In this document: piece after piece, positions 25,160 through 44,917 of the stretch
Layout of the letters: every line of letters starts with the position of its first letter
Numbering within the stretch: the first letter of the stretch is position 1
Source: Methylobacter sp.
GTDB lineage: Bacteria > Pseudomonadota > Gammaproteobacteria > Methylococcales > Methylomonadaceae
Length of the DNA stretch: 44,917 nt
NCBI GenBank assembly: GCA_004299305.1
Contig: SCPZ01000109.1
Coordinates: 1-44,917 of the forward strand
Direction: 5' to 3'
Notes under the pieces: model-generated
What the model saw: only the letters and a program-made list of their open reading frames with translations
Databases searched by the model: none
What the model was told of the DNA's origin: nothing
Position numbers and translations under genes: made by a program

Positions 25160-28100
25160 ATGTTAAATAAACAACATTGTTTTGACAGCGAAGATGCACT
25201 GATAGACAACGTCGCATCCCTGGTTGCTTTATTGCGGCAGCGGGCGGAGCGGCAAGCGCATCGCACCGCCTATACGTTTCTGGAAAACGGCGAACGGGCT
25301 CTCAGGTCGATGACCTACGGCGAACTGGATTTGCAGGCCAGACAGCTGGCCGCGCAGTTACAGGCGGCGGGTATGCAGGGCGAGCGCGCTATTTTACTCT
25401 ACCCGCCGGAACTGGATTATATCGTGGCGTTTTTTGCCTGCCTTTACGCCGGTACGATTGCGGTGCCTGCTTATCCGCCGAGCAATGGCCGACATATGCC
25501 GCGCTTGCAGGCCATCATCGATGACAGTCGGGCGGCAGTGATACTCAGCAGCCAAAGCGTCGCCAAGGCGGTGCAGCAACTTGCAGTCGGCAGCGCCGGG
25601 TTGCTAGATAAACGTTGGCTGATTACCGACGACTTTGCCGCCGCCGATGCAAGCGCTTGGCGTCTTCCTGTGTTGCGCGATCATGAACCGGCTTTTTTGC
25701 AATATACCTCGGGTTCCACCGGCAATGCCAAAGGGGTGATGGTCAGTCATGCCAATTTGATGGCGAATCAGCAACTGATCAAGCGGCGCTTCGGCCACAA
25801 TGCGCAGTCGACAGTGGTCGGCTGGTTGCCGCTGTATCATGACATGGGTTTGATCGGCAACGTGATTCAGCCTTTATATTGCGGAACCAGCGCGGTTTTA
25901 ATGTCGCCGATGGCGTTTTTGGAAAAGCCGATCCGCTGGTTGCAAGCGATCAGCGATTATCGCGCCCATACCAGCGGCGGGCCGAATTTTGCGTTCGAGC
26001 TGTGCGCCAGGAAAATTTCGGATGAAGACAAAGCCGGGTTGGATCTTAGCCCTTGGCGCTTGGCCTTTAACGGCGCGGAGCCGATTAATCCCGACACCAT
26101 GAATCGTTTTGCCGACGCTTTTGCAGAATGCGGATTTAGCAGGCAAGCTTTTTATCCCTGTTACGGCTTGGCGGAAGCCACGTTGCTGGCTACCGGCGGC
26201 GATAAAAATAACCAGCCTACGGTGGCGGCTTTTTACAAGACCGGTCTGGAACAAGGTCGGGTGCGTCCGGCCTTGGACGGCGACGACAATATCCGCCATC
26301 TGGTCGGCTGCGGCGGCATCGATGTTGACGCCGGTCAAGGGATTCGTATTGCCGATCCCTTGACCGGCGAGCCGTGTAAGGACGATCAAATCGGCGAAAT
26401 TCAACTTAGCGGCCCCAGCATCAGTCTAGGCTATTGGCAAAATTCCTCGGCTACCGGGCAGGCCTTTATCGGCGATACAGGCGATAAAAACCGTTGGCTG
26501 CGCACCGGCGATTTGGGTTTTATTGCGGGCGGCGAATTGTTTGTTTCAGGACGGCTTAAAGATCTAATCATCATTCGCGGCCGCAATTATTATCCGCACG
26601 ATCTGGAATACGCAACCGAGGCGGCGACGGATGCGTTAAGCTCCGGCTGTGCGGTCGCCTTTGCGGTGAACGGAGACGACGGCGAAAAACTGGTTGTGCT
26701 GGCTGAACTGAAACGCAATCGCTTAAGACAGTCCGACTATCGGGCCGAGTTTGCCGCGATACGCGCTCGGTTGGTCGAGGAGTGCGGCATACAGGCCGAT
26801 ACCGTTATGCTGTTGAAACCGGGAGCTATCTTAAAAACCAGCAGCGGCAAAATCAGGCGTTCGGCTTGTAGGCTGGCTTTCGAACAGCAGCAACTTAAAA
26901 TTGTCGCAGTCGATGGACTGAATGGCGAAAGCCGCATAGCTACCGCTAGTTCCCAAGCTCAAGCTGTTATAGGTCCCCAATCTGGAGATTGGGAACCAGC
27001 ACAAAGGCTGTCGACCAGCCTGGAGCAAGTCCTGGCTGGAAAAGTGGCGGTCTTGTCCGGCTTGGCGGCCGAAGCTATCGATCTATCGCAATCCTTGTCC
27101 AGTTTAGGCTTGGATTCGCTGAAAGCGGTGGAATTGAAATATTTTATCGATGAATTGCTGACTATCGATTTTCCGGTGGCGCAGTTGCTCGGCAATCATT
27201 CCCTGAGTGTATGCGCGGAACAGGCGCTGACGTTGGCGAAAGCCGGGCAAACTTCAATAGCGCCGACAGAGTCTAGCCATGAAGAAGGCGAGCAGCCCTT
27301 ATCGTTCGGGCAACAGGCATTGTGGACCGTTAATCGGATAGAAAAAGACAGCTCGCTGTACAACATGCCGGTTGCAATGCAGATCAGCGGCAAGCTCGAT
27401 ACAGCGGCGCTGTATGACGCATTATCTGGGCTCTTGGATCGCCATGCGCAATTACGCAGCGGTTTTCGGCTTAACCGGCATACCCGGACGGTACGTATCC
27501 CGCTGGCGGGGGTTAGTCCGCAACTGGACAGAGCGACTTGCGTCGACGAGCGGCAACGCAGGGAAAATATCGCCGCGTTCATGCGCAAACCGTTCGATTT
27601 GGAGCGCGAACCGTTACTCCGAGCCGCCTTGTTCAGCTGTGCCGACGACGATCATGTGCTGGCATTTTGTGCGCATCACATCGTCGTCGATTTCCGCTCG
27701 TTATCGATTCTGCTGGAAGAGTTCAAGGCGCTTTATCGCGCACAGATAGCCGGTCATGATCCTGATTTACCCAGGGTTGCGTCAGGTTATGCCGATTATG
27801 TGGCTTGGCAGTCGGCTTATCTGGCAGGCCAGCACGCCGAGCAGGACTGGCAATACTGGCGGGAGCAGTTGTCCGGTGAGTTGCCGAAATTGGCCCTGCC
27901 CGGCGAACGGCAAACCGCCCCATCATGCCGGGGCCGGGCGGAAACACTGAATATCGAACCGGATACCCTGCAAAAGCTTAAGCGACTGGCCGCCGAGAAG
28001 CACTCGACCTTGTATACGCTGTTGCTGACGGCATTCAAAACCCTGCTTTACCGCTACAGCGGTCAACATGACATCATCGTTGGTTCGCCGACGCTGGGCA

Positions 28101-30463
28101 GGCCGAAGCGGGAGTTTGCAGATACCGTCGGTTATTTCGTCAACCCGGTGGCGCTGCGCTCGCGTCCCGCCGCCGGGCAGCGTTTTAGCGATTATTTGGC
28201 AGAGGTCAACGCTATTGTGCTGGAAGCTTTGGAGCATCAATATTACCCGTTTTCGCTGCTGGTCGAAAAATTGCAGCCCGAACGGGAGCAGGGGCCGTCG
28301 GCGTTTTACCGGGTCTGGTTTGGCTTGCAAAGCGGCGCATCCGGTGAATCCGCCGCAGCCGAGCTGGCGTTGGGCATCCCTGGCATATCGCTGGATTGGG
28401 CGGGTTTGCCGGGCGAAACTTATGCACATGAGGATGTCGCCGTGCAATTCGATATTGCCTTGCTGATGGCGGAAACTAGGCAGGGTCTGTCGGCCTCGTT
28501 TCAGTACCGTAGCGACTTGTTGCCCCGTACCACGGTATTAAGATTTATCGCTCATTTCCAATGTTTGCTGCACGGCATCCTCGCCAATCCGATAAGCCCT
28601 TTATCGGAATTGCCGCTATTGACCGCGCCTGAGCGCAAACAGCTGGCGGCATGGAATGAGACCGGCGTTGATTACCCGCGCGCTAATACAATACACGGCG
28701 TTTTCGAAGCCGTTGTCCGGCAACAGCCGCAAGCTGTTGCGCTGCTTTACCAGGAACGGAGCTTTAGCTATACCGAACTTAATGCGCAGGCCAATCGTCT
28801 GGCGCAGTGGTTATTGGAGCAAGGCGCTGGGCCGGAAAAACGCGTCGCCTTATGTATTTCGCGCTGCCCGGAATTGGTCGTAGGGATATTGGCGATACTT
28901 AAAGCCGGTGCGGTTTATGTGCCTGTCGATCCCGCTTATCCCAAGGATCGGCAAGCTTATTTGATGCAGGATGCCGGTTGCGAGTGGCTGTTGACCTGTA
29001 GCGCCCTACTGTCCAGCTTGGACTTAGCTGCTGTGAGAACAATTTGCGTCGATGATGTTGACGCCTATGCCGCTTACGCCGGCGATAACCCGGAAATACC
29101 GTTGCATGATTATCATGCGGCTTATGTTATTTACACTTCGGGTTCGACCGGCCAACCTAAAGGCGTGGTAGTTAGCCACAGCAACCTGATGCATTCCACT
29201 TGGTCCAGAAATGCCTATTACCAGGAGCCGGTAGGCTGCTATCTGCTGCTGTCGTCGTTTGCGTTCGACAGTTCGGTGGCGGGGATTTTTTGGACCTTGA
29301 GCCAGGGCGGTTGTTTATGTCTGCCGGAGGATAGTCAAGTTAAGGACCCGGCAGCGTTGGGCGTATTGATCAAACGGCGGCGGGTAACGCATCTGCTCGC
29401 GTTGCCGTCGCTTTATGAGTTGCTGTTGGAGCATGTGCCGACGGTCGAGCTGAAAACCTTGAAGACCGTCATCGTGGCCGGAGAAGCCTGTAGCAATCCG
29501 GTGACGCGGCTGCATTTCAAACGTTTTCCGGATACGGTTTTGTTTAACGAATACGGTCCTACCGAAGCCACGGTATGGAGCAGCGTTTACGCGGTGACCC
29601 AGCCGCAAGACCAAGACGCGGTGCCGATAGGCAAACCGATCGGCAATATGCGCATTTATGTGGCGGACGACGCAGTGCAACTTTTGCCGGTCGGCGTTGC
29701 CGGAGAATTGCTGATCGGCGGCGCAGGCGTCAGCCGCGGTTATCTTGACCAAGCCGACTTAACTGCGGAGAGGTTTATCCCTGATCCGTTCGGTACGGAC
29801 GGCGGCAGGTTGTATAAAACCGGCGACTTGGCGCGTTATATGGCCGACGGCAATATCGAGTTTCTAGGCCGTCTCGATCAACAGGTCAAAATCAGGGGGT
29901 ACCGGATCGAGTTGGGTGAAATCGAAGCCTGTCTACTGCGCCAGCCATCGATAAAAGCGGCGGCTGTGATGGTTCGCGAGGATGTGCCGGGCAATAAACG
30001 CCTGACCGCTTATCTGGTCGGGGAATCCGGTATGACGGTTGATTTGGAGGATTTAAAAACGCAGCTCAAGCATTGTTTGCCTGAGTACATGTTGCCGTCG
30101 GCTTGGCTATGGATGGACGCGATGCCGCTGAACGCAAACGGCAAGCTGGATCGCAATGCGCTGAGGGCATTATCCAGCCAAGCCGACAACGGGCAGCCCT
30201 TCGTTGCACCGCGCGATGAGGCGGAACAAGCCGTAGCCGATATTTGGCAGGAAGTGTTGGGCGTCCGGCAACTGAGCGTTCATGACGATTTTTTCGATTT
30301 GGGCGGCCATTCGCTATCCGGCGTACAGGTGACGGTAAAAGTGCAGGAACTGTTCAATATCGAGATGCCGGTCAAGATTTTGTTTGAAACCAAGACCGTC
30401 GCCAAGTTCGTCGACCGGATGGCGGAATATCAGGCCGCAGAGTTGCTTGAGATTGTGCAATAA
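25160..30463 (+). CDS. NRPS loading/first module: FAAL-ACP-C-A-PCP
   Basis: A 1767-residue synthetase that starts the lipopeptide. Residues about 15-590 are a fatty acyl-AMP ligase (YTSGSTGNAKGVMVSH, GWLPLYHDMGLIGNV, FYPCYGLAEATLL), which activates a fatty acid without CoA. An acyl carrier follows (GLDSLKAVELK, Ser near 652). A condensation domain (about 709-1140) has HHIVVDF near 838, as in starter C domains that acylate the first residue. The A domain (about 1155-1650; core YTSGSTGQPKG) has pocket residues read as D-S-A-L-I-A-E-V-W with Lys from the NGKLDR loop; I cannot assign a substrate. The PCP Ser is in LGGHSLSG. There is no thioesterase. A GGGTGGAG ribosome site precedes the ATG. A hairpin repeat is embedded in the FAAL-ACP linker. 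Confidence 0.95.
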   Translation: MLNKQHCFDSEDALIDNVASLVALLRQRAERQAHRTAYTFLENGERALRSMTYGELDLQARQLAAQLQAAGMQGERAILLYPPELDYIVAFFACLYAGTIAVPAYPPSNGRHMPRLQAIIDDSRAAVILSSQSVAKAVQQLAVGSAGLLDKRWLITDDFAAADASAWRLPVLRDHEPAFLQYTSGSTGNAKGVMVSHANLMANQQLIKRRFGHNAQSTVVGWLPLYHDMGLIGNVIQPLYCGTSAVLMSPMAFLEKPIRWLQAISDYRAHTSGGPNFAFELCARKISDEDKAGLDLSPWRLAFNGAEPINPDTMNRFADAFAECGFSRQAFYPCYGLAEATLLATGGDKNNQPTVAAFYKTGLEQGRVRPALDGDDNIRHLVGCGGIDVDAGQGIRIADPLTGEPCKDDQIGEIQLSGPSISLGYWQNSSATGQAFIGDTGDKNRWLRTGDLGFIAGGELFVSGRLKDLIIIRGRNYYPHDLEYATEAATDALSSGCAVAFAVNGDDGEKLVVLAELKRNRLRQSDYRAEFAAIRARLVEECGIQADTVMLLKPGAILKTSSGKIRRSACRLAFEQQQLKIVAVDGLNGESRIATASSQAQAVIGPQSGDWEPAQRLSTSLEQVLAGKVAVLSGLAAEAIDLSQSLSSLGLDSLKAVELKYFIDELLTIDFPVAQLLGNHSLSVCAEQALTLAKAGQTSIAPTESSHEEGEQPLSFGQQALWTVNRIEKDSSLYNMPVAMQISGKLDTAALYDALSGLLDRHAQLRSGFRLNRHTRTVRIPLAGVSPQLDRATCVDERQRRENIAAFMRKPFDLEREPLLRAALFSCADDDHVLAFCAHHIVVDFRSLSILLEEFKALYRAQIAGHDPDLPRVASGYADYVAWQSAYLAGQHAEQDWQYWREQLSGELPKLALPGERQTAPSCRGRAETLNIEPDTLQKLKRLAAEKHSTLYTLLLTAFKTLLYRYSGQHDIIVGSPTLGRPKREFADTVGYFVNPVALRSRPAAGQRFSDYLAEVNAIVLEALEHQYYPFSLLVEKLQPEREQGPSAFYRVWFGLQSGASGESAAAELALGIPGISLDWAGLPGETYAHEDVAVQFDIALLMAETRQGLSASFQYRSDLLPRTTVLRFIAHFQCLLHGILANPISPLSELPLLTAPERKQLAAWNETGVDYPRANTIHGVFEAVVRQQPQAVALLYQERSFSYTELNAQANRLAQWLLEQGAGPEKRVALCISRCPELVVGILAILKAGAVYVPVDPAYPKDRQAYLMQDAGCEWLLTCSALLSSLDLAAVRTICVDDVDAYAAYAGDNPEIPLHDYHAAYVIYTSGSTGQPKGVVVSHSNLMHSTWSRNAYYQEPVGCYLLLSSFAFDSSVAGIFWTLSQGGCLCLPEDSQVKDPAALGVLIKRRRVTHLLALPSLYELLLEHVPTVELKTLKTVIVAGEACSNPVTRLHFKRFPDTVLFNEYGPTEATVWSSVYAVTQPQDQDAVPIGKPIGNMRIYVADDAVQLLPVGVAGELLIGGAGVSRGYLDQADLTAERFIPDPFGTDGGRLYKTGDLARYMADGNIEFLGRLDQQVKIRGYRIELGEIEACLLRQPSIKAAAVMVREDVPGNKRLTAYLVGESGMTVDLEDLKTQLKHCLPEYMLPSAWLWMDAMPLNANGKLDRNALRALSSQADNGQPFVAPRDEAEQAVADIWQEVLGVRQLSVHDDFFDLGGHSLSGVQVTVKVQELFNIEMPVKILFETKTVAKFVDRMAEYQAAELLEIVQ
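26945..27000. repeat. REP-like repeat inside the NRPS coding sequence (FAAL-ACP linker)
   Basis: GCTAGTTCCCAAGCTC (26945-26960) is identical to 30495-30510. The hairpin GGTCCCCAATC/GATTGGGAACC (26972-26997) matches the intergenic hairpin at 30577-30602 at 22 of 26 positions. The element is read in frame as SSQAQAVIGPQSGDWEPA, residues about 596-614, between the ligase and its carrier domain. Confidence 0.8.
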
Positions 30464-30498
30464 AAACAACGACAAAATCGGCTTCCCGGTTTGTGCTA

Positions 30499-30740: not shown

Positions 30741-30820
30741 AGGAATGGCGATGTCTCGCAGACACTTGTGTATAAAGATGAGCGCGCCGCGTGGGCACTA
30801 GGATAAAAGGTAAACAAATT

Positions 30821-33800
30821 ATGACCGACACAACACTACAAGTCGAACAACAGCAAGCCAATCGCGCGCAGCTTATTGCCAGACTCAGGAAAACCGACAG
30901 CCCGGTCGGCGGCGTGATCGGCAAACGCAACGCCGACCAGGTGATACCGTTATCGTATTCGCAAGAGCGCTTATGGATCATGTCGCAGCTGGAACCGGAC
31001 AATCCTATCTACAACGTCGCCGGAGCCGTGCAATTCGACGGCTTGCTGAATACGCAAGCTTTGCGGCAAAGCCTGGACGAAGTGGCAAGACGCCACGAAA
31101 TTCTGCGCAGCCGGTTTACCGCCGAGTGTCGGCAGCGGGTATTGTCTAACAGTGAAGTGCCTATAGCCTATCTGGATCTTGCCCAATTCGACCAGGAACA
31201 AGCCATGGAACTGTTCCAACAGCGTTCCGGCGATTTTATCCGCCATCCGTTCCTGCTTTCCGAACAGCCGCCGCTACAGGCGCTGTTGGCGGTATTGGGG
31301 AAACGGCGGCATATTCTGCTGTTAACCTTGCATCATATCGTCTCGGATCGTTGGTCGGTCGGCGTGTTGATGCGGGAAGTCGCCGCATTGTATGGCGCAT
31401 ACAGTAGCGGCAAACCCTCGGCCTTGCCGGAATTGCCGATTCAATACGGCGATTATTGCGTATGGCAACGCGGGCGGCAGGAAGAATGGGCCAAGCATCT
31501 GGATTATTGGCAACAAAAACTGACTGGCGCTCCGCCATTGCTGGAATTGCCGACCGACCGTCCGAGACCGCCGACGCCCAGCTACCGGGGCGACATGCAC
31601 GGTTTCGAATTTTCCTTTGAGTTGAGCCGGGCGGTGAAAGAATTAGGCAAACAATACAATGTCACGCTGTTCATGGTGATAGCGGCCGCGTTTAACACGC
31701 TGCTATATCGCTATACCGGCAGCAAGGATAACTGTATCGGCTATCCGGTGGCCGGGCGCAGTCAAAGCCAAACGATGGCTTTAATCGGCTTTTTTGTAAA
31801 TACGCTGGTGCTGCGTTGCCGCTTGGCAGCGGATATGCCGTTCTCCGAACTGCTGCTGCAACTGCGCGAGCAGGCCTTGCAGGACCAGAGTCATCAGGAA
31901 CTTTCCTTCGGCCAATTGCTGGAGACGCTGAATCCTGTGCGCAACACCAGTCATACGCCTTTATTCCAGGTGATGCTGGCGGTGCAGAATGTGCCTATGG
32001 CGGATTTTCGGATACAGGATGTTTCGGCTGTGCCGTTGGCGATGAACAACCGCATCGCCCAATTCGACCTGACCTTGTTTATCGATGAACAGGGCGGCAA
32101 GTTGTTAGGCAATTTCGAATACAGCAGCGATTTATTCGACGCCGGGACTATCGCCAGAATGGCCGGGCATTTGCAAACGCTGTTGGCAGGCGCGGCCTGC
32201 AATCCCGATCTGCTGTTGAAGCAGTTGCCTTTGTTGCCTGAAGCGGAAAACAGACTGTTGCTTGACGACTGGAGCGGCGTAGGGCGCGCCGTGCGCGCCT
32301 TAGATCTTACGGATGCCTTATTAATTCACCGGCTTTTTGAACAGCAAGCGCAAACAAGGCCGGATAAAACGGCGCTGGTTTTTGCCGGTCAACGCATCAG
32401 TTACGGCGAACTTAACAATCGCGCAGAACTATGGGCGGAACGGTTGCAGGATTTGGGGCTAGGCCCGGAATGCCGGGTTGGCGTTTGTGCCGAGCGTTCC
32501 GTAGAGCTGATTGTCGGTTTGCTGGCCGTGCTTAAAGCCGGGGCGGCTTACGTTCCGTTGGACCCGAGCTATCCCGACGAGCGTTTGGATTATATGCTGA
32601 ACGATGCCGGTATCGGCTTGTTGCTGATCCAAAGCGCGTTAGCCGATAAGTTTCAGCATAAAGACCTTAACATGCTTTATCTGGATAAAGCTCCGTCCGA
32701 AGTCCAGACAAGGCGCGCCTCGTCTCGTCAGGTATCGCCGGACAATACCGCCTATATCATCTATACCTCGGGTTCCACCGGACAGCCTAAAGGCGTCGCG
32801 GTCAGCCATCGCAATTTGCTGCACTCGACATTGGCCAGAGTTGATTATTACCTCGAGCCGCTGGAATGCTTTCTGTTGCTGTCTTCGTTTGCCTTCGACA
32901 GTTCGGTTGCCGGGATATTTTGGACCTTAAGCCAAGGCGGATGCTTATGTCTGCCACAACAGGACGACTTGACCGATACCGCAGCCCTGACCGGACTGGT
33001 TAAGCAACACCGGGTCAGTCATCTGCTGGCCCTGCCTTCGTTTTATACGGCGATTATCAGCGACATGAACCTGACAAAGTTAAATACGCTGCAAGCGGTT
33101 ATCGTCGCAGGGGAGGCTTGTTCGGGCGACATCGCCGCGGAGCATTACCGCAAGCTGCCCGAGGTTTCTTTTTACAATGAATACGGCCCTACGGAGGGCA
33201 CGGTTTGGAGCAGCGTTTATCGCAGCAAAAAATCTGATTCCGGCGTTACGCTGCCGATAGGCCGGGCTATCGATAAAGTGCGGATTTATATTCTCGACCG
33301 GCAATGCCAACCGGTGCCGATAGGCGTTAGCGGTGAGTTGTGCATAGGCGGGGCCGGTTTGGCGCAAGGCTATGTGAACCAAGCTGGGCTGACTGCGGAA
33401 AAATTCATTCCCAATCCGTTCAGTTCGAATGGTGAGCGGCTTTACAAAACCGGCGACCTGACGCGCTTTCGGGCCGATGGCGAAATTGAATTTCTGGGCC
33501 GTATAGACAAGCAAGTCAAAGTTCGCGGCTACCGGATCGAGTTGGGCGAAATCGAACAGCGCCTGCAACAACATCCCGCCATTAAGGATGCCGCCGTTCT
33601 GGTAACAGAGGAAGCGTCCGGCAATAAAAGGCTGCTTGCCTATCTGGTTGCCGGACAATCCGATGCGATGCCGGAACCTTCTGCTTTGCAGGCCTATCTT
33701 AAACAAACGCTGCCGGATTATATGCTGCCGTCGAATTATGTCGGTTTGGACGAATTGCCGTTAATGCCGAACGGTAAGCGGGATCGTCTTGCACTGTTGA

Positions 33801-34162
33801 AGATCGAACATCCGGCTACGCAAGCGCGGGAATTCAAATCGGCATCGAATTGGATAGAAGCCGATCTGGCGGATATTTGGCGTGAGGTGTTGGGCCTTGA
33901 GGCAGTCGGCGTCGATACCGATTTTTTCGAACTGGGCGGGCATTCGTTGGCGGCCATTCAGGTCAAATCCCGCATTCAATGCATTTTCAATATCGATGTT
34001 CCAGCGAAGATGCTGTTCGAATCGCCGACCGTTGAATTACAGGCCGCAGCAATAGCCCGTCTGCAAATTCAACAGCACGATGATCGTTCTTTGGACGAGT
34101 TGTTGCAAGAACTCGAACAGCTTTCAGACGCAGAAGTTAAGCAGTTGCTTGCGACTGAGTAA
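30821..34162 (+). CDS. NRPS second module: C-A-PCP
   Basis: A 1113-residue single module. The C domain (about residues 40-470) has LSYSQERLWIM and HHIVSDR near residue 171; Arg follows the catalytic Asp where Gly is usual. The A domain (about 480-1000) contains YTSGSTGQPKG near 647 and pocket residues read as D-S-A-L-I-A-E-V-W, identical to the first module. The PCP Ser is in LGGHSLAA near 1042. The C-terminal tail (LDELLQELEQLSDAEVKQLL) may be a docking helix. The start at 30821 (MTDTTLQVEQ) has AAAAGG upstream; an ATG at 30791 would add ten residues. The C-A linker holds a palindromic repeat (32279-32302). Confidence 0.94.
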   Translation: MTDTTLQVEQQQANRAQLIARLRKTDSPVGGVIGKRNADQVIPLSYSQERLWIMSQLEPDNPIYNVAGAVQFDGLLNTQALRQSLDEVARRHEILRSRFTAECRQRVLSNSEVPIAYLDLAQFDQEQAMELFQQRSGDFIRHPFLLSEQPPLQALLAVLGKRRHILLLTLHHIVSDRWSVGVLMREVAALYGAYSSGKPSALPELPIQYGDYCVWQRGRQEEWAKHLDYWQQKLTGAPPLLELPTDRPRPPTPSYRGDMHGFEFSFELSRAVKELGKQYNVTLFMVIAAAFNTLLYRYTGSKDNCIGYPVAGRSQSQTMALIGFFVNTLVLRCRLAADMPFSELLLQLREQALQDQSHQELSFGQLLETLNPVRNTSHTPLFQVMLAVQNVPMADFRIQDVSAVPLAMNNRIAQFDLTLFIDEQGGKLLGNFEYSSDLFDAGTIARMAGHLQTLLAGAACNPDLLLKQLPLLPEAENRLLLDDWSGVGRAVRALDLTDALLIHRLFEQQAQTRPDKTALVFAGQRISYGELNNRAELWAERLQDLGLGPECRVGVCAERSVELIVGLLAVLKAGAAYVPLDPSYPDERLDYMLNDAGIGLLLIQSALADKFQHKDLNMLYLDKAPSEVQTRRASSRQVSPDNTAYIIYTSGSTGQPKGVAVSHRNLLHSTLARVDYYLEPLECFLLLSSFAFDSSVAGIFWTLSQGGCLCLPQQDDLTDTAALTGLVKQHRVSHLLALPSFYTAIISDMNLTKLNTLQAVIVAGEACSGDIAAEHYRKLPEVSFYNEYGPTEGTVWSSVYRSKKSDSGVTLPIGRAIDKVRIYILDRQCQPVPIGVSGELCIGGAGLAQGYVNQAGLTAEKFIPNPFSSNGERLYKTGDLTRFRADGEIEFLGRIDKQVKVRGYRIELGEIEQRLQQHPAIKDAAVLVTEEASGNKRLLAYLVAGQSDAMPEPSALQAYLKQTLPDYMLPSNYVGLDELPLMPNGKRDRLALLKIEHPATQAREFKSASNWIEADLADIWREVLGLEAVGVDTDFFELGGHSLAAIQVKSRIQCIFNIDVPAKMLFESPTVELQAAAIARLQIQQHDDRSLDELLQELEQLSDAEVKQLLATE
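32279..32302. repeat. Dispersed palindrome inside the NRPS C-A linker (copy 2)
   Basis: GTAGGGCGCGCCGTGCGCGC (32279-32298) plus CTTA matches the intergenic palindrome at 1446-1470 with about two differences. It is translated as VGRAVRAL in the linker DDWSGVGRAVRALDLTDALL, which is six or seven residues longer than the same linker in the first module. Confidence 0.7.
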
Positions 34163-34204
34163 TAGATTACACAAGACCACCTCGATAATCAGGAATTTTT
34201 AAAT

Positions 34205-37200: not shown

Positions 37201-37603
37201 CCCGCTCACGGCGAACGGCAAGCTGGATCGTCATGCACTTCCGGAGCCGGACGGTAGGTCTTTTATTTCACGACATTATGAAGCGCCGCAAGGAGCCGTT
37301 GAAAATGCGCTTGCTGATGTCTGGCGGGAACTTCTACGCGTCGAACAAGTCGGACGGCATGATAATTTCTTCGAGTTAGGCGGTCATTCGCTGATCTTGG
37401 TCGGCCTGATAGAACGGCTTCGTCAGCTGGGCTTGATGGCTAATATCCGTATGCTATTTGCAGCGCCTACGCTTGCCGCGATGGCACAGGCCGTAAGCCA
37501 TGTTGACAAGCAAACGGCAGCTTTTGCCGTGCCGCCCAATTTGATACCTGATGCTTTTGCCCAATCACATATACACAGTATTACCGAGGAATTCCGGCTA
37601 TGA
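34205..37603 (+). CDS. NRPS third module: C-A(Thr)-PCP
   Basis: An 1132-residue module predicted to add threonine. The C domain (about residues 40-470) has LSFAQERLWFL and HHIVADE near residue 174. In the A domain (core YTSGSTGLPKG near 659) the pocket reads D-F-W-N-V-G-M-V-H-K (FDFSVWELW, LNQTPSAF, VFGGEA, NMYGITEITVHATYY), differing from the well-known Thr code DFWNIGMVHK at one place. The PCP Ser is in LGGHSLIL near 1061. AGGA precedes the ATG after a 42-bp gap. The stop overlaps the next start as ATGA, so the two are coupled. Confidence 0.94.
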   Translation: MSSHTARIADLSKEKQALLLKRIKERTAPVSQAINQRADFSPCPLSFAQERLWFLAQMEPDNPFYNMAGVVQLHGKLNSPVLEQALNEVVRRHQALRTSFRIIENEARQVIDAPAAIAITSIDLTALNELQQESVVKVIEEQEAHRVFDLQQTPLLRAALLKLDDERYVLLMTLHHIVADEWSLRLLINEAGTYYEIFKNGNPSLEPELPIQYADFAVWQRKRLQGELYDRQIAYWKQYLEAAPTVLELPTDRSRPSVMSYRGANHEFELSRETSVALIGLSRQADTTLFAVMMAVFTVLLSRYSGQDDICIGYPIANRNRQDIENLIGFFVNTQVLRSDLSGNPTFIELLDRVRKNSLDAQNNQDLPFERLVEELKLERELNRTQLFQAMLVYQNAPMDGLNVSDLHFQVTDAKMNSAKFDLTLTVLRSENQLRCGFNYSTDLFDGSTIVRMVKHLQNLLVGIVRQPEARVLDLPMLSASERQQILVESSNTPAGYPQHLCIHQLFEEQVKKTPDAIAAVFEDKILSYSDLNCQANRVAHYLLALGIRPDERVAICVERGLDMIVGLLGILKAGGAYVPLDPNYPAERLAYMLSDSAPTALLTQSALQSNLSDLISSALPILLLDAASETRSEFAHYPACNPDPKALGLSAGHLAYIIYTSGSTGLPKGVMVEHEQVVRLFAATQDKFHFDGADVWTLFHSFAFDFSVWELWGALFYGGRLVLVSYDTSRSPDAFYALLCREGVTVLNQTPSAFRQLIAAQTHNPEPHVLRCIVFGGEALEFHSLAPWVERNDLEHTQLINMYGITEITVHATYYRILRSDIDAQRGSLIGRHLADLSFYILDAQMQPVPLGVTGEIYIGGAGVARGYLNRPELSAERFISDPFSMNIESADRLYRTGDLGRRLPDGNVEYIGRNDFQVKIRGFRIELGEIEEQLAACHGVQDAVVIAREDSPGDKRLVAYLIEKDGSELSAVELRAQLATVLADYMLPSAFVTLTAFPLTANGKLDRHALPEPDGRSFISRHYEAPQGAVENALADVWRELLRVEQVGRHDNFFELGGHSLILVGLIERLRQLGLMANIRMLFAAPTLAAMAQAVSHVDKQTAAFAVPPNLIPDAFAQSHIHSITEEFRL

Positions 37604-40600
37604 ATATGCAAGAGCTGCTTGCTCACCTGAAACAGAAAAATATAGCGATTGCCTCGGATAACGGGGAATTGGTGATTCATGCCGCTAAAGGCGTGATGGA
37701 TTCGGAAACACTGGCGCTGTTAAAACAGCATAAAGAGGCATTATTAAGTGCGGCCCGACAGGAAGATTCAGCCGGGTTTGCGTCGGCTCCGATTAACATT
37801 AGCCCGGACATGCTGCCGCTGGTCAGCCTTAGCCAGGACGAGATTAACCTGATCGTAGGCAAGGTCCCGCAAGGGGCGGCCAATATCCAGGATATTTACC
37901 CGCTAGCCCCGATGCAGGAAGGCATATTGTTTCATCACTTGCTGGAAGCCGGGGGCGATGCCTATTTATTACGGTCGGTCATTGTTTTTGACGGCCGCGA
38001 ACGCTTGGACGCTTTCCTGAACGCGTTGCAAGCCGTGATTGACCGTCACGACGTCCTGCGCAGCGCGATTTACTGGGAGGGCTTGAGCCAACCTGTGCAA
38101 GTGGTGCATAGGACGGCAAAACTGCCGGTTGAGAAAATCGTCCTGAGGCCGGAAGCCGATGCGTTGCAACAACTCTATGCTCAAACCGATCCGCGCATTG
38201 TGCGCCTGAACCTGCAACAAGCGCCGTTATTTAAAGCCTGTATTGGGGCTGATCCGCATTCGGGTGAATGGCTGCTGGCGCTGCTGAACCATCATCTGGT
38301 TTGCGACCATGTTACCTTGGCCTTAACCCTGGCCGAGATTCGAATGCTGCTTCAAGGGCAGGGCGGCCGTCTGCCGCCGCCTGTACCTTACCGTAATTTT
38401 ATTGCCCAAGCGCTTGCCGTTCCGCCTTCCGAACATGAAGCCTATTTTATAAGTCGGCTTGGCGATGTCGATGAGCCTACCGCGCCGTTCGGCATAGTTA
38501 ATATTCAAGGCACCGGCGAACATGTAAGCGAGGCGACTTTGCCTTTGAGCGATGAACTGGCGCTACGCATCCGCGATTGTGCCAGGCAGCAGGGCGTCAC
38601 TGCCGCTGTGCTGTTTCATGTCGCTTGGGCGCTGGTTTTAGCGCGATGCACAGGCCGCCGTGATGCAGTTTTCGGCACCGTGTTGTTGGGCAGGCTTCAA
38701 GGTTCGACCGGGGCGGATCGATCCTTGGGAATGTTCATCAACACCTTGCCGATACGCATTCCGCTGGCAAATGCCAATGTGCGTGAAACCGTCGGCGATA
38801 CTTACCGGAATCTGAGCGAATTACTCAACCATGAACAGGCTTCGCTGGCGCTGGCTCAGCGTTGCAGCTCAGTGCCGAACGGAATGCCGTTGTTTACTAG
38901 CTTGTTCAACTATAGGCATAGCGACGATTCCCTTACTCCGTTTGATTGGGAAGGTATGCGCATTCTCGGCAGCGAGGAAAGGACTAACTACCCGGTCACG
39001 TTGTCTGTGAATGATAGCGGCAAAGGCTTCGGCTTAACGGCGCAATGCGTCGAAGGAATTGATCCGGTTCGGATTGCGGCTTATCTGAAGACCGCGATAG
39101 AAGAATTGGTTGGGGCAGAGCCCATGCAAGCGATCGAAAGCCTGAATATTCTGCCGACAGAAGAGCTACAGCAATTATTATTCGAGTTTAATGATCCCGT
39201 CGTTCCCACACGGAGCGACCGTTTGATGCATCGGCTATTTGAAGACCAGGTGGAAAAAACGCCGGATGCGCTGGCAGTCGTTTACGAAAAGCAGGGTTTA
39301 ACTTACGCTGAGCTTAACCGGCGCGCCAATCAGCTGGCGCATCATCTGTCGGATATCGGCATCCGGCCCGACGACCGGGTAGCCATTTGCTTGGAGCGCA
39401 GCCTGGAAATGGTGGTAGGCTTGTTAGGCATAGTCAAAGCCGGGGGCGCTTACGTGCCGCTCGACCCCGGCTATCCGCAAGACCGGCTGGACTTTATGCT
39501 GCGCGATGTTGGAGCGCAGATTGTGCTTAGCCAAGAAGCTTGTCGGGGAAAACTGGCGGTCTCTACTGCGGCGGTTTTGTGCCTGGATAGCGATTGGGAG
39601 CTTATAGCGCAAGCCGAAGATAGCAATCCCGACATCTCGGTGATCCCGGAAAACCTGGCCTATTGCATCTATACCTCCGGTTCCACCGGACAACCTAAAG
39701 CCGCCTGCGTGCCGCATCAGGGCATAGTCAACCGGCTGCAATGGATGCAGCAACAATACCGGCTGAATGCCGACGATGCTGTATTGCAAAAAACGCCGTA
39801 CAGCTTCGACGTCTCGGTTTGGGAATTCTTCTGGCCGTTGATGAACGGCGCTCGGCTGGTCGTTGTCCGGCCGGACGCGCACAAGGACGGTTCGGCGCTG
39901 ATCGATATTATCAACAGCGAACACATCACCACTGTGCATTTCGTGCCGTCGATGCTGCAAGCCTTTATCGACACGCCGGGCGTGGAAAACTGCTTGTCGC
40001 TAAAACGCGTCATCTGTAGCGGCGAAGCTTTGCCGGCCGATTTGGTCGCACGTTTCCAGCAAAAATTACCGGCCGAACTGCATAATCTTTACGGCCCAAC
40101 CGAAGCTTCGGTAGACGTCAGTTATTGGGCTTGTTTGCGAGGTAGAGCCGAAACCGCGATTCCGATAGGCCGTCCGATAGCCAACATTAGGCTTTATATC
40201 CTTGACCGGCAGCTCAATCCGGCGCCACTCGGCACGTCGGGTGAATTGCATATCGGCGGCGTCGGTTTGGCGCGCGGCTACCTTAATCGCCCCGAACTGA
40301 CTGCGGAAAAATTCATCCCCAATCCTTTCGCTGAACAGGGCGAAAGACTCTACAAAACCGGCGATTGGGTACGTTACCGGCCAGACGGCAATATTGATTA
40401 TCTGGGCCGTATCGATCATCAAGTCAAAATCAGGGGATTCAGGATAGAGTTGGGCGAAATCGAGGCCCGATTGCTGGAGCACCCGGACATCAAAGAAGCG
40501 GTGGTCCTTGCCCGTGAAGACCAACCGGGAGACAAGCGGCTGGTCGCCTATCTGGTTGCCGCCGCCAAGGATGCGTTTGATGTCGACACCGTAAAACTCC

Positions 40601-41040
40601 AGCTTAAAAATACATTGCCGGAATACATGGTTCCCGGCGTTTTCGTGCTGCTGGACAGGATGCCGCTCAACGCCAACGGCAAGCTGGAACGCAAGCGCTT
40701 GCCGCAACCGGACATCGGCGCGATGTCGGCAAAACACTATGTCGCGCCGCGCACCGCAACCGAGGACATCCTGGCCGGAATCTGGGCTGAGGTTTTGGGC
40801 GTCGAACAAGTCGGCGTCGAGGATAACTTCTTCGAACTGGGCGGACATTCGTTGTTAGCGACTCAGCTGGTATCCAGGATTTGTCTTCGTTTCAACATTA
40901 ATTTGCAGTTGAAAACCCTGTTTGATACGACCAGCGTCGCCCAGCTGGCCGCCAAAGTCGACCTGTTGGCTTGGGCCAAAGATCAGCGGGAGGCAGTGCA
41001 ATATAGCGCCGAACTTGAGCTTGAGGACATTGAGCTATGA
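37600..41040 (+). CDS. NRPS fourth module: docking-C-A(Ser)-PCP
   Basis: An 1146-residue module predicted to add serine. Residues 1-58 resemble the TubC N-terminal docking domain (MQELLAHLKQKNIAIASDNG, KEALLSAA). The C domain differs from the others: it opens YPLAPMQEGILFHHLLEAGG and its active site is NHHLVCDHVTL near residue 230. The A domain (core YTSGSTGQPKA near 690) has pocket D-V-W-H-I-S-L-V-D-K (FDVSVWEFF, VHFVPSML, ICSGEA, NLYGPTEASVDVSYW), matching Ser codes. The PCP Ser is in LGGHSLLATQL near 1084. It overlaps its neighbours by ATGA on both sides. Confidence 0.94.
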   Translation: MNMQELLAHLKQKNIAIASDNGELVIHAAKGVMDSETLALLKQHKEALLSAARQEDSAGFASAPINISPDMLPLVSLSQDEINLIVGKVPQGAANIQDIYPLAPMQEGILFHHLLEAGGDAYLLRSVIVFDGRERLDAFLNALQAVIDRHDVLRSAIYWEGLSQPVQVVHRTAKLPVEKIVLRPEADALQQLYAQTDPRIVRLNLQQAPLFKACIGADPHSGEWLLALLNHHLVCDHVTLALTLAEIRMLLQGQGGRLPPPVPYRNFIAQALAVPPSEHEAYFISRLGDVDEPTAPFGIVNIQGTGEHVSEATLPLSDELALRIRDCARQQGVTAAVLFHVAWALVLARCTGRRDAVFGTVLLGRLQGSTGADRSLGMFINTLPIRIPLANANVRETVGDTYRNLSELLNHEQASLALAQRCSSVPNGMPLFTSLFNYRHSDDSLTPFDWEGMRILGSEERTNYPVTLSVNDSGKGFGLTAQCVEGIDPVRIAAYLKTAIEELVGAEPMQAIESLNILPTEELQQLLFEFNDPVVPTRSDRLMHRLFEDQVEKTPDALAVVYEKQGLTYAELNRRANQLAHHLSDIGIRPDDRVAICLERSLEMVVGLLGIVKAGGAYVPLDPGYPQDRLDFMLRDVGAQIVLSQEACRGKLAVSTAAVLCLDSDWELIAQAEDSNPDISVIPENLAYCIYTSGSTGQPKAACVPHQGIVNRLQWMQQQYRLNADDAVLQKTPYSFDVSVWEFFWPLMNGARLVVVRPDAHKDGSALIDIINSEHITTVHFVPSMLQAFIDTPGVENCLSLKRVICSGEALPADLVARFQQKLPAELHNLYGPTEASVDVSYWACLRGRAETAIPIGRPIANIRLYILDRQLNPAPLGTSGELHIGGVGLARGYLNRPELTAEKFIPNPFAEQGERLYKTGDWVRYRPDGNIDYLGRIDHQVKIRGFRIELGEIEARLLEHPDIKEAVVLAREDQPGDKRLVAYLVAAAKDAFDVDTVKLQLKNTLPEYMVPGVFVLLDRMPLNANGKLERKRLPQPDIGAMSAKHYVAPRTATEDILAGIWAEVLGVEQVGVEDNFFELGGHSLLATQLVSRICLRFNINLQLKTLFDTTSVAQLAAKVDLLAWAKDQREAVQYSAELELEDIEL

Positions 41041-44000
41041 ATCAACTGCTCGCAACTCTGCGCAATTTGAATGTGCATCTTTATGTCGAACAAGGCAACT
41101 TAAAATGCAAAGCGCCGAAAGATGCGTTGAGCGAAGAGCTCAAGTTTCAGCTTAAATCCAGAAAAGCGGAGTTAATCGAAGCGCTTTCTGAATCCGGGCA
41201 GGAATTCTCAGCGATAATGCCAGGTCAACGCATAGAACCGCTGCCGCTGTCTTACGCCCAGCAGCGCTTATGGTTCCTGGACCGCTTGGAACCGGACAGC
41301 TCGCTGTATAACATGCCCTATGCGTTCAGCTTGGCCGGGTATTTGAATGTAGCGGCATTGGCGCAAAGCTTCAACGAGATAGTAAGGCGGCATGAGAATT
41401 TGCGTACTGTTTTCGCTACCGGGGGCATTGCTGGGAACGTTACTGGGAACATTACTAGGAACAAGGCGCCGACTCAGGAAATTTCGCCCGAATTAGCGTT
41501 GTCCATTACTAACGTAGATTTAACGGGATTACCTGAACAGGCCTGCCGGGCTGTGCTGGCGAAGCTGTGTCGGCAGGAGGCGGCAAAGCCGTTTTGTTTA
41601 GCGGTCGGTCCCTTGATACGGATAACTCTGATTGCCTTGTCAGGAGAAAATAGGCTGCTGGTGACCTTGCACCATATCATTTCCGACGGCTGGTCGTCGG
41701 CGATTTTGATGCGCGAATTCGCAGCGCTTTATCAGGCGTTTAGCCGGGGCGAACAATCGCCGTTAGCGGAGCTGCCGGTTCAATACGCCGATTTTGCCTG
41801 CTGGCAACGCGACAGGCTCGTCGGCGATGTGTTGCGGCAACAGATCGATTATTGGCGAAACAAACTGGATGGCGCGCCCAGCTTGCTGGAATTGCCGACC
41901 GACCGCCCAAGACCGGCCGTGATGAGTCATTGCGGAGCACTGCATCGCTTTGAAATGACGGCGGCCTTAGCGGAGCAAATCCATAAATTGGGCCGACGAT
42001 ACGATGCGACCTTATTCATGCTGTTGTTGACGGCGTTCAAAATCCTGCTGTTTCGCTACAGCCACCAGCAGGATATTTGCGTCGGCACGCCGATTGCCAA
42101 CCGCAACCGCCTGGAAATAGAAGGCTTGATCGGTTTCTTTGTCAACACCCTGATATTGCGCTCCGACCTGTCGGGCAATCCGCAATTCGATGCGTTGTTG
42201 ACCCAGGTTAGGAATACCGTTTTAGACGCGCAAAACCATCAGGATTTACCGTTCGAACAACTGGTCGAAGCGTTGCATCCCGAGCGTAACTTGAGCTACA
42301 GCCCCTTGTTCCAGGTTATGTTTGTGTTGCAAAACCAGGCCGGTCAAGCGCTGAAACTGCCGGATTTGGAAATCTGCGCCATCGACGATGACAGCAAGGT
42401 TTCCAAATTCGACCTGACTTTGCATATCCACGAAGATCAAGGGACGCTTAGCGGCAGTTTCGAATATAACACCGAGTTATTCGACCCAGGCACGATAGCG
42501 CGTTTTGCAGGGCACTATGCGGCTTTGCTGCAAGGCATGGTCGACGCACCGCAAACCCGTCTTTACCAATTGCCGTTGTTGGCTTTGGATGAGCGGAGGC
42601 AAATCCTGGTTGATTGGAATGCCACGCAAGCCGACTTTCCGTCGGATCAATGCCTGTATCAATTATTCGAAGCGCAAGTGGATAAAACGCCGAATGCCGA
42701 TGCGCTGGCGTTTGCAGGACGAAGCTTAAGCTACGCCGAACTCAACGCCAAAGCCAATCAGCTGGCCCATTATCTGCGCTGCAAAGGCGTCGGGCCTAAT
42801 GTATTGGTCGGCCTTTGCGTTGAGCGCTCGCTGGAGATGGTGATCGGCATGTTGGGCATTATGAAGGCGGGCGGCGCTTATGTGCCTATCGATCCTCATT
42901 ATCCCGAACAGCGCATCGAATTTATGCTTAACGATGCGCGGATTGACGTATTGCTTACCCGGCAAGCGTTGGCTGCGACATTGCCGCACAGCGTGAAGGA
43001 CACGATTTGTCTGGATAGCGATTGGCAGATTATTGCCCAATGTCCTTCGGATAATCCGGCGCAATGTAATCACCCGCTTGATCCGGCCTATATCATCTAC
43101 ACCTCCGGATCCACAGGACAGCCCAAAGGCGTGATGGTTTCGCACCGCAATGCCGTGCATTCGACAAACGCGCGGTTTGTCAGCTATCGGGAAGAAGTAA
43201 GCGCTTATCAATTGCTGTCTTCGTTTGCTTTCGACAGTTCCGTGGCCGGATTGTTCTGGACGCTGGGGCAGGGCGGTTGTCTGTGCTTGCCGACCGACGA
43301 CGAAGCTAAAGATCCGGCGGCATTGGTTGAAATTATTGCGAATCGCAGGGTATCGCATCTGCTGGCGTTGCCGTCCTTTTACGCGTTGCTGCTTAAACAA
43401 ACGGGAACCAAACTGAAAACCTTGAAAACAGCCATCGTTGCCGGAGAAACCTGTTCAACCGAAGTCGTCAGGCAACATTACGCGGTATTGCCGAATGTGC
43501 CGCTATACAACGAATACGGCCCGACCGAAGGCTCGGTGTGGAGCAGTGTTTATTTGGCGGGTCGGGACGATTATGACAGGCCGTTATCGATAGGGCGGCC
43601 TATCAGCAATGTACGGCTGTATATCCTGGATCGCAACGGCAACCCGGTTCCGGTCGGCGTAGCGGGCGAACTGCATATCGGCGGTGCGGGCGTGGCGCAC
43701 GGCTATTGGAATCGCCCTGAATTGACCGCAGAAAAATTCATCCCCGATCCGTTCCAAAACGACGGCGGCAGGCTGTATAAAACCGGCGACCTGGCGCGTT
43801 ACCGCCCGGACGGCGCTATCGAGTTTTCAGGCCGTATCGACGATCAGGTGAAAATACGCGGCTTCAGGATTGAGTTGGGGGAAATCGAGGCCAGGCTTAT
43901 CGAGCAGTCCGGTGTCGAGGAGGCGGCCGTTTTGGTCAGGGAAAAGCGGCCCGGAAATAAGCAATTGGTCGCTTATGTTGTCGGCAGAGGCACGCTTACG

Positions 44001-44917
44001 GCGGAGTTGTTAAGGGCAAATCTTAAAGCTTCGTTGCCGGATTATATGTTGCCGGGCGCTGTTGTGTTTCTGGAGCGGATGCCGTTGACCGCAAACGGCA
44101 AAATCGACCGCAAGGCGTTGCCGGAACCGGATATGACGGAATCTGCAAAAAACCGCTACGTAGCGCCTGCGACTGAGACGGAAACAGCGTTGGCGGCGAT
44201 TTGGCGCGAGCTACTCGGTATTGAACTGGTCGGCAGGCATGACGATTTTTTCAGTTTGGGCGGGCATTCGTTGCTGGCGGTTCAGTTGCCGGTTGCGGTG
44301 CAAAAACAATTCAATATCGAATTACCGCTCAAGCGCTTTTTCGAGCTGCCGACTGTTGCGGCGCAAGCGCGGTTAATCGATACCGGCGAGAGCGGGGAAG
44401 ACCCGGTCGACCTTGAAGCCGAAGCCGTACTCGATGCGGCGATTGTTCCTTTGTCGTCTGCACCTGTCAACGTAGCGGCAGCGCAGGGAGTGTTCCTGAC
44501 CGGCGCAACCGGATTTCTGGGGGTGTTTTTGTTGGCCGAGTTGCTGGAGCAAACCTACGCCAAAATCTATTGCCTGGTCAGGGCAAGCAATGAGCAACAA
44601 GCGCTGGCTCGATTGCAAGGCCAAATCGCTTATTACGAGCTGCAAGACGGTATCGATTGGAGCCGTATTATTGTCGTGTGCGGCGATTTGTCGGAACCCC
44701 GGCTTGGGCTGTCCGAACTGCGCTACGAAGAAATTGCCGAACAGGTTGAAGTCATTTATCACAATGGGGCTCAGGTCAACTTTATCCAGCCTTATAAGGC
44801 ACTAAAAGACGCCAATGTTTTGGGGACCGAAGCGGTGTTGCGTCTCGCCTGTTATCGCACAGCCAAAGCGATTCACTATGTTTCGACCTTGTCGGTGTTT
44901 AGCGAAGCATCCGCTAA
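41037..44917 (+). CDS. NRPS fifth module: docking-C-A-PCP-terminal reductase (partial at window end)
   Basis: An open frame of 1293 residues that runs off the window. Residues 1-50 form a TubC-like docking domain (MNQLLATLRNLNVHLYVEQG). The C domain carries LSYAQQRLWFL and HHIISDG near residue 212. The A domain (core YTSGSTGQPKG near 688) has the pocket D-S-A-L-I-A-E-V-W again. The PCP Ser is in LGGHSLLAVQL near 1077. From about 1150 a thioester reductase begins (GVFLTGATGFLGVFLLAELL, then YHNGAQVNFIQPYKALKDANV and IHYVSTLSVF), an NAD(P)H-dependent SDR fold that releases the chain as aldehyde or alcohol. The catalytic Tyr/Lys lie beyond the edge. ATGA overlap with the preceding gene. A 12-bp tandem repeat expands the C domain. 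Confidence 0.93.
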   Translation, partial: MNQLLATLRNLNVHLYVEQGNLKCKAPKDALSEELKFQLKSRKAELIEALSESGQEFSAIMPGQRIEPLPLSYAQQRLWFLDRLEPDSSLYNMPYAFSLAGYLNVAALAQSFNEIVRRHENLRTVFATGGIAGNVTGNITRNKAPTQEISPELALSITNVDLTGLPEQACRAVLAKLCRQEAAKPFCLAVGPLIRITLIALSGENRLLVTLHHIISDGWSSAILMREFAALYQAFSRGEQSPLAELPVQYADFACWQRDRLVGDVLRQQIDYWRNKLDGAPSLLELPTDRPRPAVMSHCGALHRFEMTAALAEQIHKLGRRYDATLFMLLLTAFKILLFRYSHQQDICVGTPIANRNRLEIEGLIGFFVNTLILRSDLSGNPQFDALLTQVRNTVLDAQNHQDLPFEQLVEALHPERNLSYSPLFQVMFVLQNQAGQALKLPDLEICAIDDDSKVSKFDLTLHIHEDQGTLSGSFEYNTELFDPGTIARFAGHYAALLQGMVDAPQTRLYQLPLLALDERRQILVDWNATQADFPSDQCLYQLFEAQVDKTPNADALAFAGRSLSYAELNAKANQLAHYLRCKGVGPNVLVGLCVERSLEMVIGMLGIMKAGGAYVPIDPHYPEQRIEFMLNDARIDVLLTRQALAATLPHSVKDTICLDSDWQIIAQCPSDNPAQCNHPLDPAYIIYTSGSTGQPKGVMVSHRNAVHSTNARFVSYREEVSAYQLLSSFAFDSSVAGLFWTLGQGGCLCLPTDDEAKDPAALVEIIANRRVSHLLALPSFYALLLKQTGTKLKTLKTAIVAGETCSTEVVRQHYAVLPNVPLYNEYGPTEGSVWSSVYLAGRDDYDRPLSIGRPISNVRLYILDRNGNPVPVGVAGELHIGGAGVAHGYWNRPELTAEKFIPDPFQNDGGRLYKTGDLARYRPDGAIEFSGRIDDQVKIRGFRIELGEIEARLIEQSGVEEAAVLVREKRPGNKQLVAYVVGRGTLTAELLRANLKASLPDYMLPGAVVFLERMPLTANGKIDRKALPEPDMTESAKNRYVAPATETETALAAIWRELLGIELVGRHDDFFSLGGHSLLAVQLPVAVQKQFNIELPLKRFFELPTVAAQARLIDTGESGEDPVDLEAEAVLDAAIVPLSSAPVNVAAAQGVFLTGATGFLGVFLLAELLEQTYAKIYCLVRASNEQQALARLQGQIAYYELQDGIDWSRIIVVCGDLSEPRLGLSELRYEEIAEQVEVIYHNGAQVNFIQPYKALKDANVLGTEAVLRLACYRTAKAIHYVSTLSVFSEASA
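41431..41466 (+). repeat. 12-bp tandem repeat within the C domain of the fifth module
   Basis: CTGGGAACGTTA, CTGGGAACATTA and CTAGGAACAAGG follow each other and encode AGNVTGNITRNK. The block inserts about a dozen residues into a surface stretch of the C domain (around residue 133) compared with the sister modules. Confidence 0.75.

Follow-up and report, generated by a model that had tools for sequence, protein, structure and literature searches.

The window analysed here, a stretch of 44,917 nucleotides of Methylobacter sp. DNA, carries a FAAL-ACP and five C-A-PCP modules on five same-strand genes, an assembly line that we confirm as real and that we consider likely to belong to a metallophore pathway reaching about contig position 69165. 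The product would probably scavenge a scarce metal rather than inhibit proteases, and its acyl tail is probably temporary, being removed during maturation. We favor a metallophore with a removed tail because genes for a receptor, a PepSY reductase, an ECF sigma factor and FecR, a PvdE-like exporter, and an acylase lie nearby. A first-pass annotation of the window had taken the N-acyl peptide to be the finished product, with a possible role as a protease inhibitor, a proposal left unsupported by these adjoining genes. No earlier description of the cluster was found in a literature search of open-licence papers. The genes and the domains of g1 are as follows:

25160..30463, forward strand: g1, FAAL-ACP-C-A (DSALIAEVWK, predicted His)-PCP (Pfam, NCBIfam, code)
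about 25214-26899, forward strand: g1 FAAL (NCBIfam FAAL models)
27011-27220, forward strand: g1 ACP (Pfam)
27284-28645, forward strand: g1 C domain (Pfam)
28703-30145, forward strand: g1 A domain, code DSALIAEVWK, predicted His (Pfam and published code)
30227-30418, forward strand: g1 PCP (Pfam)
30791..34162, forward strand: g2, C-A (DSALIAEVWK, predicted His)-PCP (Pfam and code)
34205..37603, forward strand: g3, C-A (DFWNVGMVHK, predicted Thr)-PCP (Pfam and code)
37600..41040, forward strand: g4, N-terminal TubC docking-C (dual E/C motifs)-A (DVWHISLVDK, predicted Ser)-PCP (Pfam, code, motifs)
41037..44917 in the window, on to 45599 of the contig, forward strand: g5, TubC docking-C-A (DSALIAEVWK, predicted His)-PCP-thioester reductase (Pfam, code, motifs)

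Condensation domains scored 168-384 bits against a Pfam cut-off of 30.6, and AMP-binding domains at least 294 bits against 29.9. The FAAL assignment is based on the best NCBIfam FAAL model for g1, which reached 530 bits and lies under its own cut-off of 775; residues 19-1760 of g1 also match positions 9-1711 (of 4334) of NF004282 at 1438 bits, under the 4090 cut-off. Terminal reductases are recognized by cofactor and YxxxK motifs, and the g5 reductase retains both intact (TGATGFLG and YAQSK). The gene adjacency, domains, and order given in the first-pass annotation were thus borne out by the Pfam and NCBIfam scans, and its proposal of FAAL loading, five collinear modules, and reductive release is supported. 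That annotation had also raised the possibility of extra modules beyond the reductase. On the parent contig (C130, 119,243 bases), g5 stops at 45599 with a length of 1520 amino acids, ends in one complete NAD_binding_4 (thioester reductase) domain, and is followed by nothing further of this kind.

The codes of g3 and g4 agree with the earlier placement of Thr at position 3 and Ser at position 4. The remaining three residues had been left blank, yet they are predictable, given that modules 1, 2, and 5 share the identical code DSALIAEVWK. In the available part of a study that gives four codes for 14 His A domains, this is one of the four, and it is also described as accepting beta-OH-His (PMC12283262). 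Modules 1, 2, and 5 are therefore predicted to load His, and the predicted chain, acyl-His-His-Thr-Ser-His, would leave as an aldehyde or an alcohol, two- and four-electron reduction being inseparable by sequence. A separate epimerization domain is indeed absent, as had been stated, but the g4 C domain carries the dual epimerase/condensation motifs HHLLEAGGD and HHLVCDH, so the Thr residue probably has the D configuration. DSALIAEVWK occurred in 22 of 85 extracted A-domain stretches (a set that takes in partials and FAAL pieces), three of them in the window's cluster and all others from relatives' clusters or contig fragments. It was absent from the NRPS genes on contigs C75 and C60 of this genome, from contigs C18 of G011 and C105 of G001, and from the second NRPS region of G019.

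The first-pass annotation saw no transporter or regulator in the window, and a scan of ten other window proteins likewise showed none for this pathway, but such genes are present on the contig just beyond it. Downstream lie genes for a TonB receptor, a PepSY reductase, a sulfotransferase, glycosyltransferases, a carbamoyltransferase, an RND pump, an ECF sigma factor, a PvdE-like exporter, a penicillin-acylase-type acylase, and FecR, with the FecR and ECF sigma genes both located in the cluster. The TonB-dependent siderophore receptor (TIGR01783, 346 bits against a 223.5 cut-off) has an STN domain, and its best PDB matches are FoxA/CntO, the enantio-pyochelin receptor, and the ferripyoverdine receptor. 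The sole PDB match of the PepSY reductase is 7abw, a PepSY-domain protein that is presumably FoxB. The exporter matches TIGR01194 (cyclic-peptide export ABC protein, PvdE type) at 477 bits against 286, and the acylase matches Pfam Penicil_amidase at 557 bits against 21.3, with PDB beta chains, including that of PvdQ, starting at query residue 267. The acylase is not PvdQ proper (63 bits with the PvdQ model NF051460 against 950), and its best PDB match is D-succinylase within the wider penicillin-acylase superfamily; its substrate is consequently a guess. Among the tailoring enzymes, the carbamoyltransferase aligns over residues 1-662 of its 666 with GdmN and with the novobiocin enzyme, a glycosyltransferase falls in a macrolide-type family, and the sulfotransferase, which bears an SCP2 lipid-binding-type domain, matches characterized proteins weakly, with 30 bits for the NoeE model (cut-off 500) and about 40 bits for the highest-scoring PDB entry.

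Gene order, domains, codes, motifs, and the recurrence of partner genes were seen directly, and from them we infer the chemistry of every step, the tailoring order, the tail removal, and the metal binding. A fatty acid would be activated by the FAAL and put on the ACP, after which the five modules would append His, His, Thr, Ser, and His in turn, with the Thr probably epimerized to D by the dual domain in g4. Release by the reductase would leave an aldehyde or alcohol at the C terminus. The lipidated chain would probably be sulfated, glycosylated, and O-carbamoylated in the cytosol, on hydroxyls of Thr, Ser, or a sugar. The PvdE-like exporter would then carry it to the periplasm, where the penicillin-acylase-type Ntn hydrolase would probably strip the acyl tail, as PvdQ does on pyoverdine, and the RND pump would secrete the deacylated product. 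The metal complex would re-enter via the STN-bearing receptor, which would signal by way of FecR and the ECF sigma factor, and the PepSY reductase would let the metal go after import.

In Pseudomonas, the pyoverdine pathway employs PvdL, PvdE, PvdQ, FpvA, FpvR/FpvI, and FpvG. The cluster shares with it a FAAL-ACP-C-A-PCP start, a cyclic-peptide exporter, an Ntn acylase, an STN-bearing receptor, ECF sigma/FecR-type signaling, and a PepSY reductase. Unlike pyoverdine, it would encode a His/Thr/Ser peptide with reductive release; it also has sulfotransferase, glycosyltransferase, and carbamoyltransferase genes and an acylase that is only distantly PvdQ-like, and no chromophore genes (PvdP, PvdN, PvdO, PvdM) were seen among the cluster genes annotated.

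The metal may be iron, copper, or a lanthanide, and all three readings are forms of the metallophore explanation. Corrugatin and histicorrugatin are lipopeptide siderophores containing beta-hydroxyhistidine, and corrugatin-type siderophores bind Fe(III) via beta-hydroxylated His. The cluster resembles these systems in its lipid start and in a His code described as accepting beta-OH-His (PMC12283262, available part) and differs from them in its reductase release, its extra tailoring genes, and the lack of a detectable TauD-type hydroxylase. An iron siderophore of this kind, with His hydroxylated by an enzyme not recognized here and by Cupin_8 proteins in relatives, is a plausible reading that we hold to be short of probable. 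The dedicated uptake set (TBDR, PepSY_TM, ECF sigma, FecR) is of the iron-siderophore type, and a Cupin_8 gene, with JMJD5 proteins as its nearest solved relatives, occurs in five of the 25 stretches compared. On the other hand, searches of the Cupin_8 and TauD families found no His beta-hydroxylase in the cluster: the genome has no Cupin_8 match, so that family was dropped here as a universal His hydroxylase, and its single TauD match is weak (35.5 bits) and lies on another contig. Nor was a Fur box found at the operon start. With a 19-mer consensus and 400-base tiles of the contig as background, neither g1 nor the receptor gene had an upstream site better than 11 of 19 positions, the score that tiles most often reach, and sites upstream of FAAL genes in five relatives (10-12 of 19) did not exceed background tiles. 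One 14/19 site lies at 65586, between the exporter and acylase genes, and six of 235 tiles reached 14.

Three imidazoles and no hydroxylase found would, on general chemistry, suit copper better than Fe(III), and an AmoA/PmoA-family gene is present in this genome and in those of both ammonia-oxidizer loci. A chalkophore that holds copper for methane monooxygenase through its unmodified imidazoles and a deacylated N-terminal His-His nevertheless seems unlikely to us, since the uptake parts fall in families named for iron systems and the AMO/pMMO link may mirror taxonomic range alone. The available text of PMC3621798 reports sulfotransferases in some methanobactin operons, several methanotrophs without such an operon, and that any chalkophore of the latter must be unrelated to methanobactin. 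Two MbnB/TglH/ChrH-family genes lie on other contigs of this genome, so the present host may or may not be methanobactin-less. Methanobactins and the cluster have in common a methanotroph metal carrier (predicted here), a TonB receptor, and, in some methanobactin operons, a sulfotransferase, whereas methanobactins are ribosomal and Cys-derived and the cluster peptide would be nonribosomal and His-based. A more specific version, distinctly unlikely as a whole, is that the product is a nonribosomal chalkophore used by oxidizers of methane and ammonia, the copper carrier long suspected in methanobactin-less methanotrophs. The fatty acid would cap the peptide only until the periplasmic acylase cleaves it off. 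The exposed amino end with its His-His pair would then form the copper site, and the C-terminal histidinal could react with the amine to give a cyclic imine, so that the inactive precursor would turn into a metal-binding macrocycle only after leaving the cytoplasm. A lanthanide carrier for XoxF methanol dehydrogenases is highly improbable, as His is a poor lanthanide ligand on general chemistry.

Bleomycin biosynthesis combines a His module with glycosyl- and carbamoyltransferases, and these three elements recur in the cluster, which lacks bleomycin's polyketide, bithiazole, and DNA-binding parts. Reductive release, the macrolide-type glycosyltransferase family, the carbamoyltransferase, and the efflux pump would be consistent with an antibiotic or protease-inhibiting lipopeptide aldehyde, as first suggested, with self-resistance through the RND pump; we think this very unlikely, as it leaves the recurrent set of receptor, PepSY reductase, FecR, exporter, and acylase unexplained. 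In Schlegelella brevitalea, glidonins are nonribosomal lipopeptides deacylated by a PvdQ-like acylase; they carry a putrescine terminus, and the available part of that report gives no link to metal uptake (PMC10587159).

Little is known of metal acquisition by gammaproteobacterial methanotrophs, and the accessible text of one report calls methanotroph iron uptake poorly characterized (PMC13274454). Genome mining has used known chelator pathways as markers (PMC12971057, available part). Such mining would probably miss the window's own cluster, because no recognized chelator gene was found in it.

Related clusters that combine His modules with the partner set, complete or partial, are found in other Methylococcales and in two ammonia-oxidizer genomes that bear AMO. 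Across the 25 stretches compared (many incomplete, two from one cluster), TBDR and exporter genes were each present in 18, the acylase in 16 (some of the nine without it being incomplete), PepSY_TM in 14, and FecR in 12. The family is present in the cultured strains M. tundripaludum SV96 and M. buryatense 5G, so the question raised by a His-rich nonribosomal peptide family with its own receptor and sulfotransferase is open to testing. The NRPS of SV96 is separated by about 1.3 Mb of the same record from the exporter-acylase-FecR block, which may therefore serve other products. G008 has the receptor, PepSY proteins, exporter, acylase, and FecR, with no sulfotransferase and no His code among its readable Thr and Ser modules. 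With the sulfotransferase profile, the window's own genome alone matched at E <= 1e-60 among 398 genomes of the phylum, and 251 genomes of the order gave 25 matches at E <= 1e-30. Two Pyrinomonadaceae MAG loci have a sulfotransferase, an exporter, and a FAAL, with no His code in the stretch examined and no AMO match in their genomes, which argues against a strict link between this sulfotransferase and either metal uptake or copper oxidizers. Doubled C domains in relatives were considered as interface domains, a reading ruled out by their E-type RTVGWF motif. Two further loci, L073 and L080, come from MAGs named Ignavibacteriales and Bacteroidia whose genomes gave no AMO match; their layouts resemble those of Methylomonas and Methylobacter loci, and they are perhaps mis-binned.

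The first-pass annotation gave the right domain order for the five genes g1 to g5 (25160 to 45599): FAAL, ACP, then five C-A-PCP modules, with a thioester reductase last. The complete g5, ending at 45599, has zero domains beyond the reductase and adds no modules; the assembly line is real and complete. A-domain codes were extracted by scripted alignment, and codes from the same script in other NRPS genes, which we recognised as those for Pro, Gly and Ala, serve as a column check. Module 3 has DFWNVGMVHK and module 4 DVWHISLVDK, which we take to be near the standard Thr and Ser codes, respectively, while modules 1, 2 and 5 share DSALIAEVWK. In a survey of 2051 A domains, four codes occur among 14 His domains, and DSALIAEVWK is named as a His code accepting beta-hydroxylation (PMC12283262). 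From the codes of modules 1-5, the predicted chain is acyl-His-His-Thr-Ser-His; the Thr and Ser of the earlier acyl-X-X-Thr-Ser-X are retained, and X becomes His.

The window indeed has no epimerisation domain, but the g4 C domain, with the lowest Pfam score of the five (168 bits), carries HHLLEAGGD, a fit to the dual E/C motif HH(I/L)xxxxGD, and HHLVCDH. Of 50 ORFs that contain C domains, 7 have the first motif, 4 of them together with the second. The nearest solved relatives of this domain are the McyB C domain and one PvdL C domain, both of which we take to accept D-configured donors. Because of these motifs and relatives, Thr is probably epimerised.

Genes right of the window (coordinates continue the window's):
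45764-48220, NRPS strand: TonB receptor
48251-49489, NRPS strand: PepSY_TM
49471-50766, NRPS strand: sulfotransferase with SCP2
50798-52165, NRPS strand: first glycosyltransferase
52287-54287, NRPS strand: carbamoyltransferase
54370-59868, NRPS strand: RND adaptor, permease and outer-membrane channel
from 60356, NRPS strand: second glycosyltransferase
62406-62909, opposite strand: ECF sigma factor
63790-65448, NRPS strand: exporter
65635-68052, NRPS strand: acylase
68185-69165, NRPS strand: FecR
70496-72297: HlyD and ABC pair, candidate cluster members

Two small adjoining ORFs directly past FecR (stretch L019, 8612-8872 and 9102-9347) look toxin-antitoxin-like by eye.

In the pyoverdine layout, an exporter-acylase-FecR block adjoins a FAAL-started NRPS and an STN receptor, all of which the cluster here shares. 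Because the layout is pyoverdine-type, the acyl tail is expected, by analogy, to be temporary. The acylase falls below NCBI's PvdQ cut-off and hence is not PvdQ by that model; in M. tundripaludum SV96 the exporter-acylase-FecR block lies apart from the NRPS. PvdQ-type enzymes take part in siderophore maturation by cutting off acyl chains, and they also deacylate glidonins (PMC10587159). We infer the substrate of the acylase, the sequence in which sulfation, glycosylation and carbamoylation take place, and the identity of the metal. The cluster is probably of the NRP metallophore type, and the protease-inhibitor function suggested earlier is unlikely.

Relatives of g5 are 77% identical in M. 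tundripaludum OWC-G53F and 78% identical in genome G011, there interrupted by a contig end. Predicted chains are His-His-(E)-Ser-Thr-Ser-His-reductase in OWC-G53F, His-His-Ser-(E)-Ser-Ser-His-NMeSer-thioesterase in SV96 (its first His assigned from DSALVAEVWK, a near code) and His-(E)-Ser-His-(E)-Ser-reductase in G009. G020 has residues identical to those of SV96, and G046, from another family of the same order, has Ser, Dab and a His-reductase module. Since release type differs among relatives, reductive release is not constant in the family. DSALIAEVWK occurs in 22 of 85 A stretches extracted, one being a G007 fragment without partner genes in view; no sulfotransferase match was found in the G007 genome. 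Elsewhere, a FAAL-NRPS gene (L043, G001 C68, 1064-6479) is broken across two frames, either genuinely or through faulty assembly, and SV96 has another NRPS in an 8591 aa open frame (C2:741287-767059) with a reductase-like domain at its end.

An alignment of nine cluster sulfotransferases was scanned against an 84,980-species collection, reaching only places that match two short peptide patterns, and gave 21 loci. These (13 as fetched, L068 as the second OWC-G53F contig, seven via longer stretches of the same contigs), with the window's genome, OWC-G53F C16, G046 and G008, make up 25 stretches. The stretches are non-independent draws, because several span little sequence, the sulfotransferase was the selection criterion for, or is also present in, 23 of 25, and some entered its alignment; among them are TonB-dependent receptor (18/25), exporter (18/25), acylase (16/25), PepSY_TM (14/25), FecR (12/25) and Cupin_8 (5/25). 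Three loci absent from the alignment, L084 (Methylococcaceae UBA4132), L086 (Nitrosomonas) and L075 (Burkholderiales H5_AOB4), have His code, acylase and exporter; no receptor was found within the available stretch of L075 or L086. The sulfotransferase marker is narrow: within the order, 25 of 251 genomes have it, and a phylum sample of 398 genomes yielded it only in the window's own. MAG contigs L073 (Ignavibacteriales label) and L080 (Bacteroidia label) have a Methylomonas/Methylobacter-like gene layout, possibly through mis-binning. Pyrinomonadaceae MAG contigs L076 and L081 combine the same sulfotransferase family and exporter with a FAAL-bearing NRPS without His code.

Within the metallophore reading, the families of the receptor, reductase and signalling pair favour iron, although the operon start yielded no Fur site. 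Two points favour copper. The chain has three imidazoles, and the hydroxylase searches turned up nothing more than a single weak TauD match. In host range, the AMO family is present in 5 of 10 genomes tested, both ammonia oxidisers included; the five negatives are MAGs without exception, among them two from Pyrinomonadaceae in whose clusters no His code was seen. The evidence for either metal is not decisive. A Cupin_8 (JMJD5-like) gene at L046:7671-8504, also seen in L070, L072, L073 and L074, may be a His beta-hydroxylase of a family other than TauD.

The window's genome (4.49 Mb, 144 contigs; window at C130:1-44917) belongs to the same genus as SV96. Because an AMO-family (AmoA/PmoA) gene is present, on another contig, the host is most likely a methanotroph. 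The cluster offers a testable tie to metal supply in methane oxidisers. Two MbnB/TglH/ChrH family genes lie at C131:1708-2493 and C116:12885-13673. Two more NRPS clusters, on C75 (L020, L021) and C60 (L022), lack the His code; their codes resemble those we take to be for Tyr, Ile/Val, Thr, Ala and Asn. Across the NRPS genes (window 24001-44917), G+C is 50-56%, versus 43-53% (mostly <50%) ahead of them.
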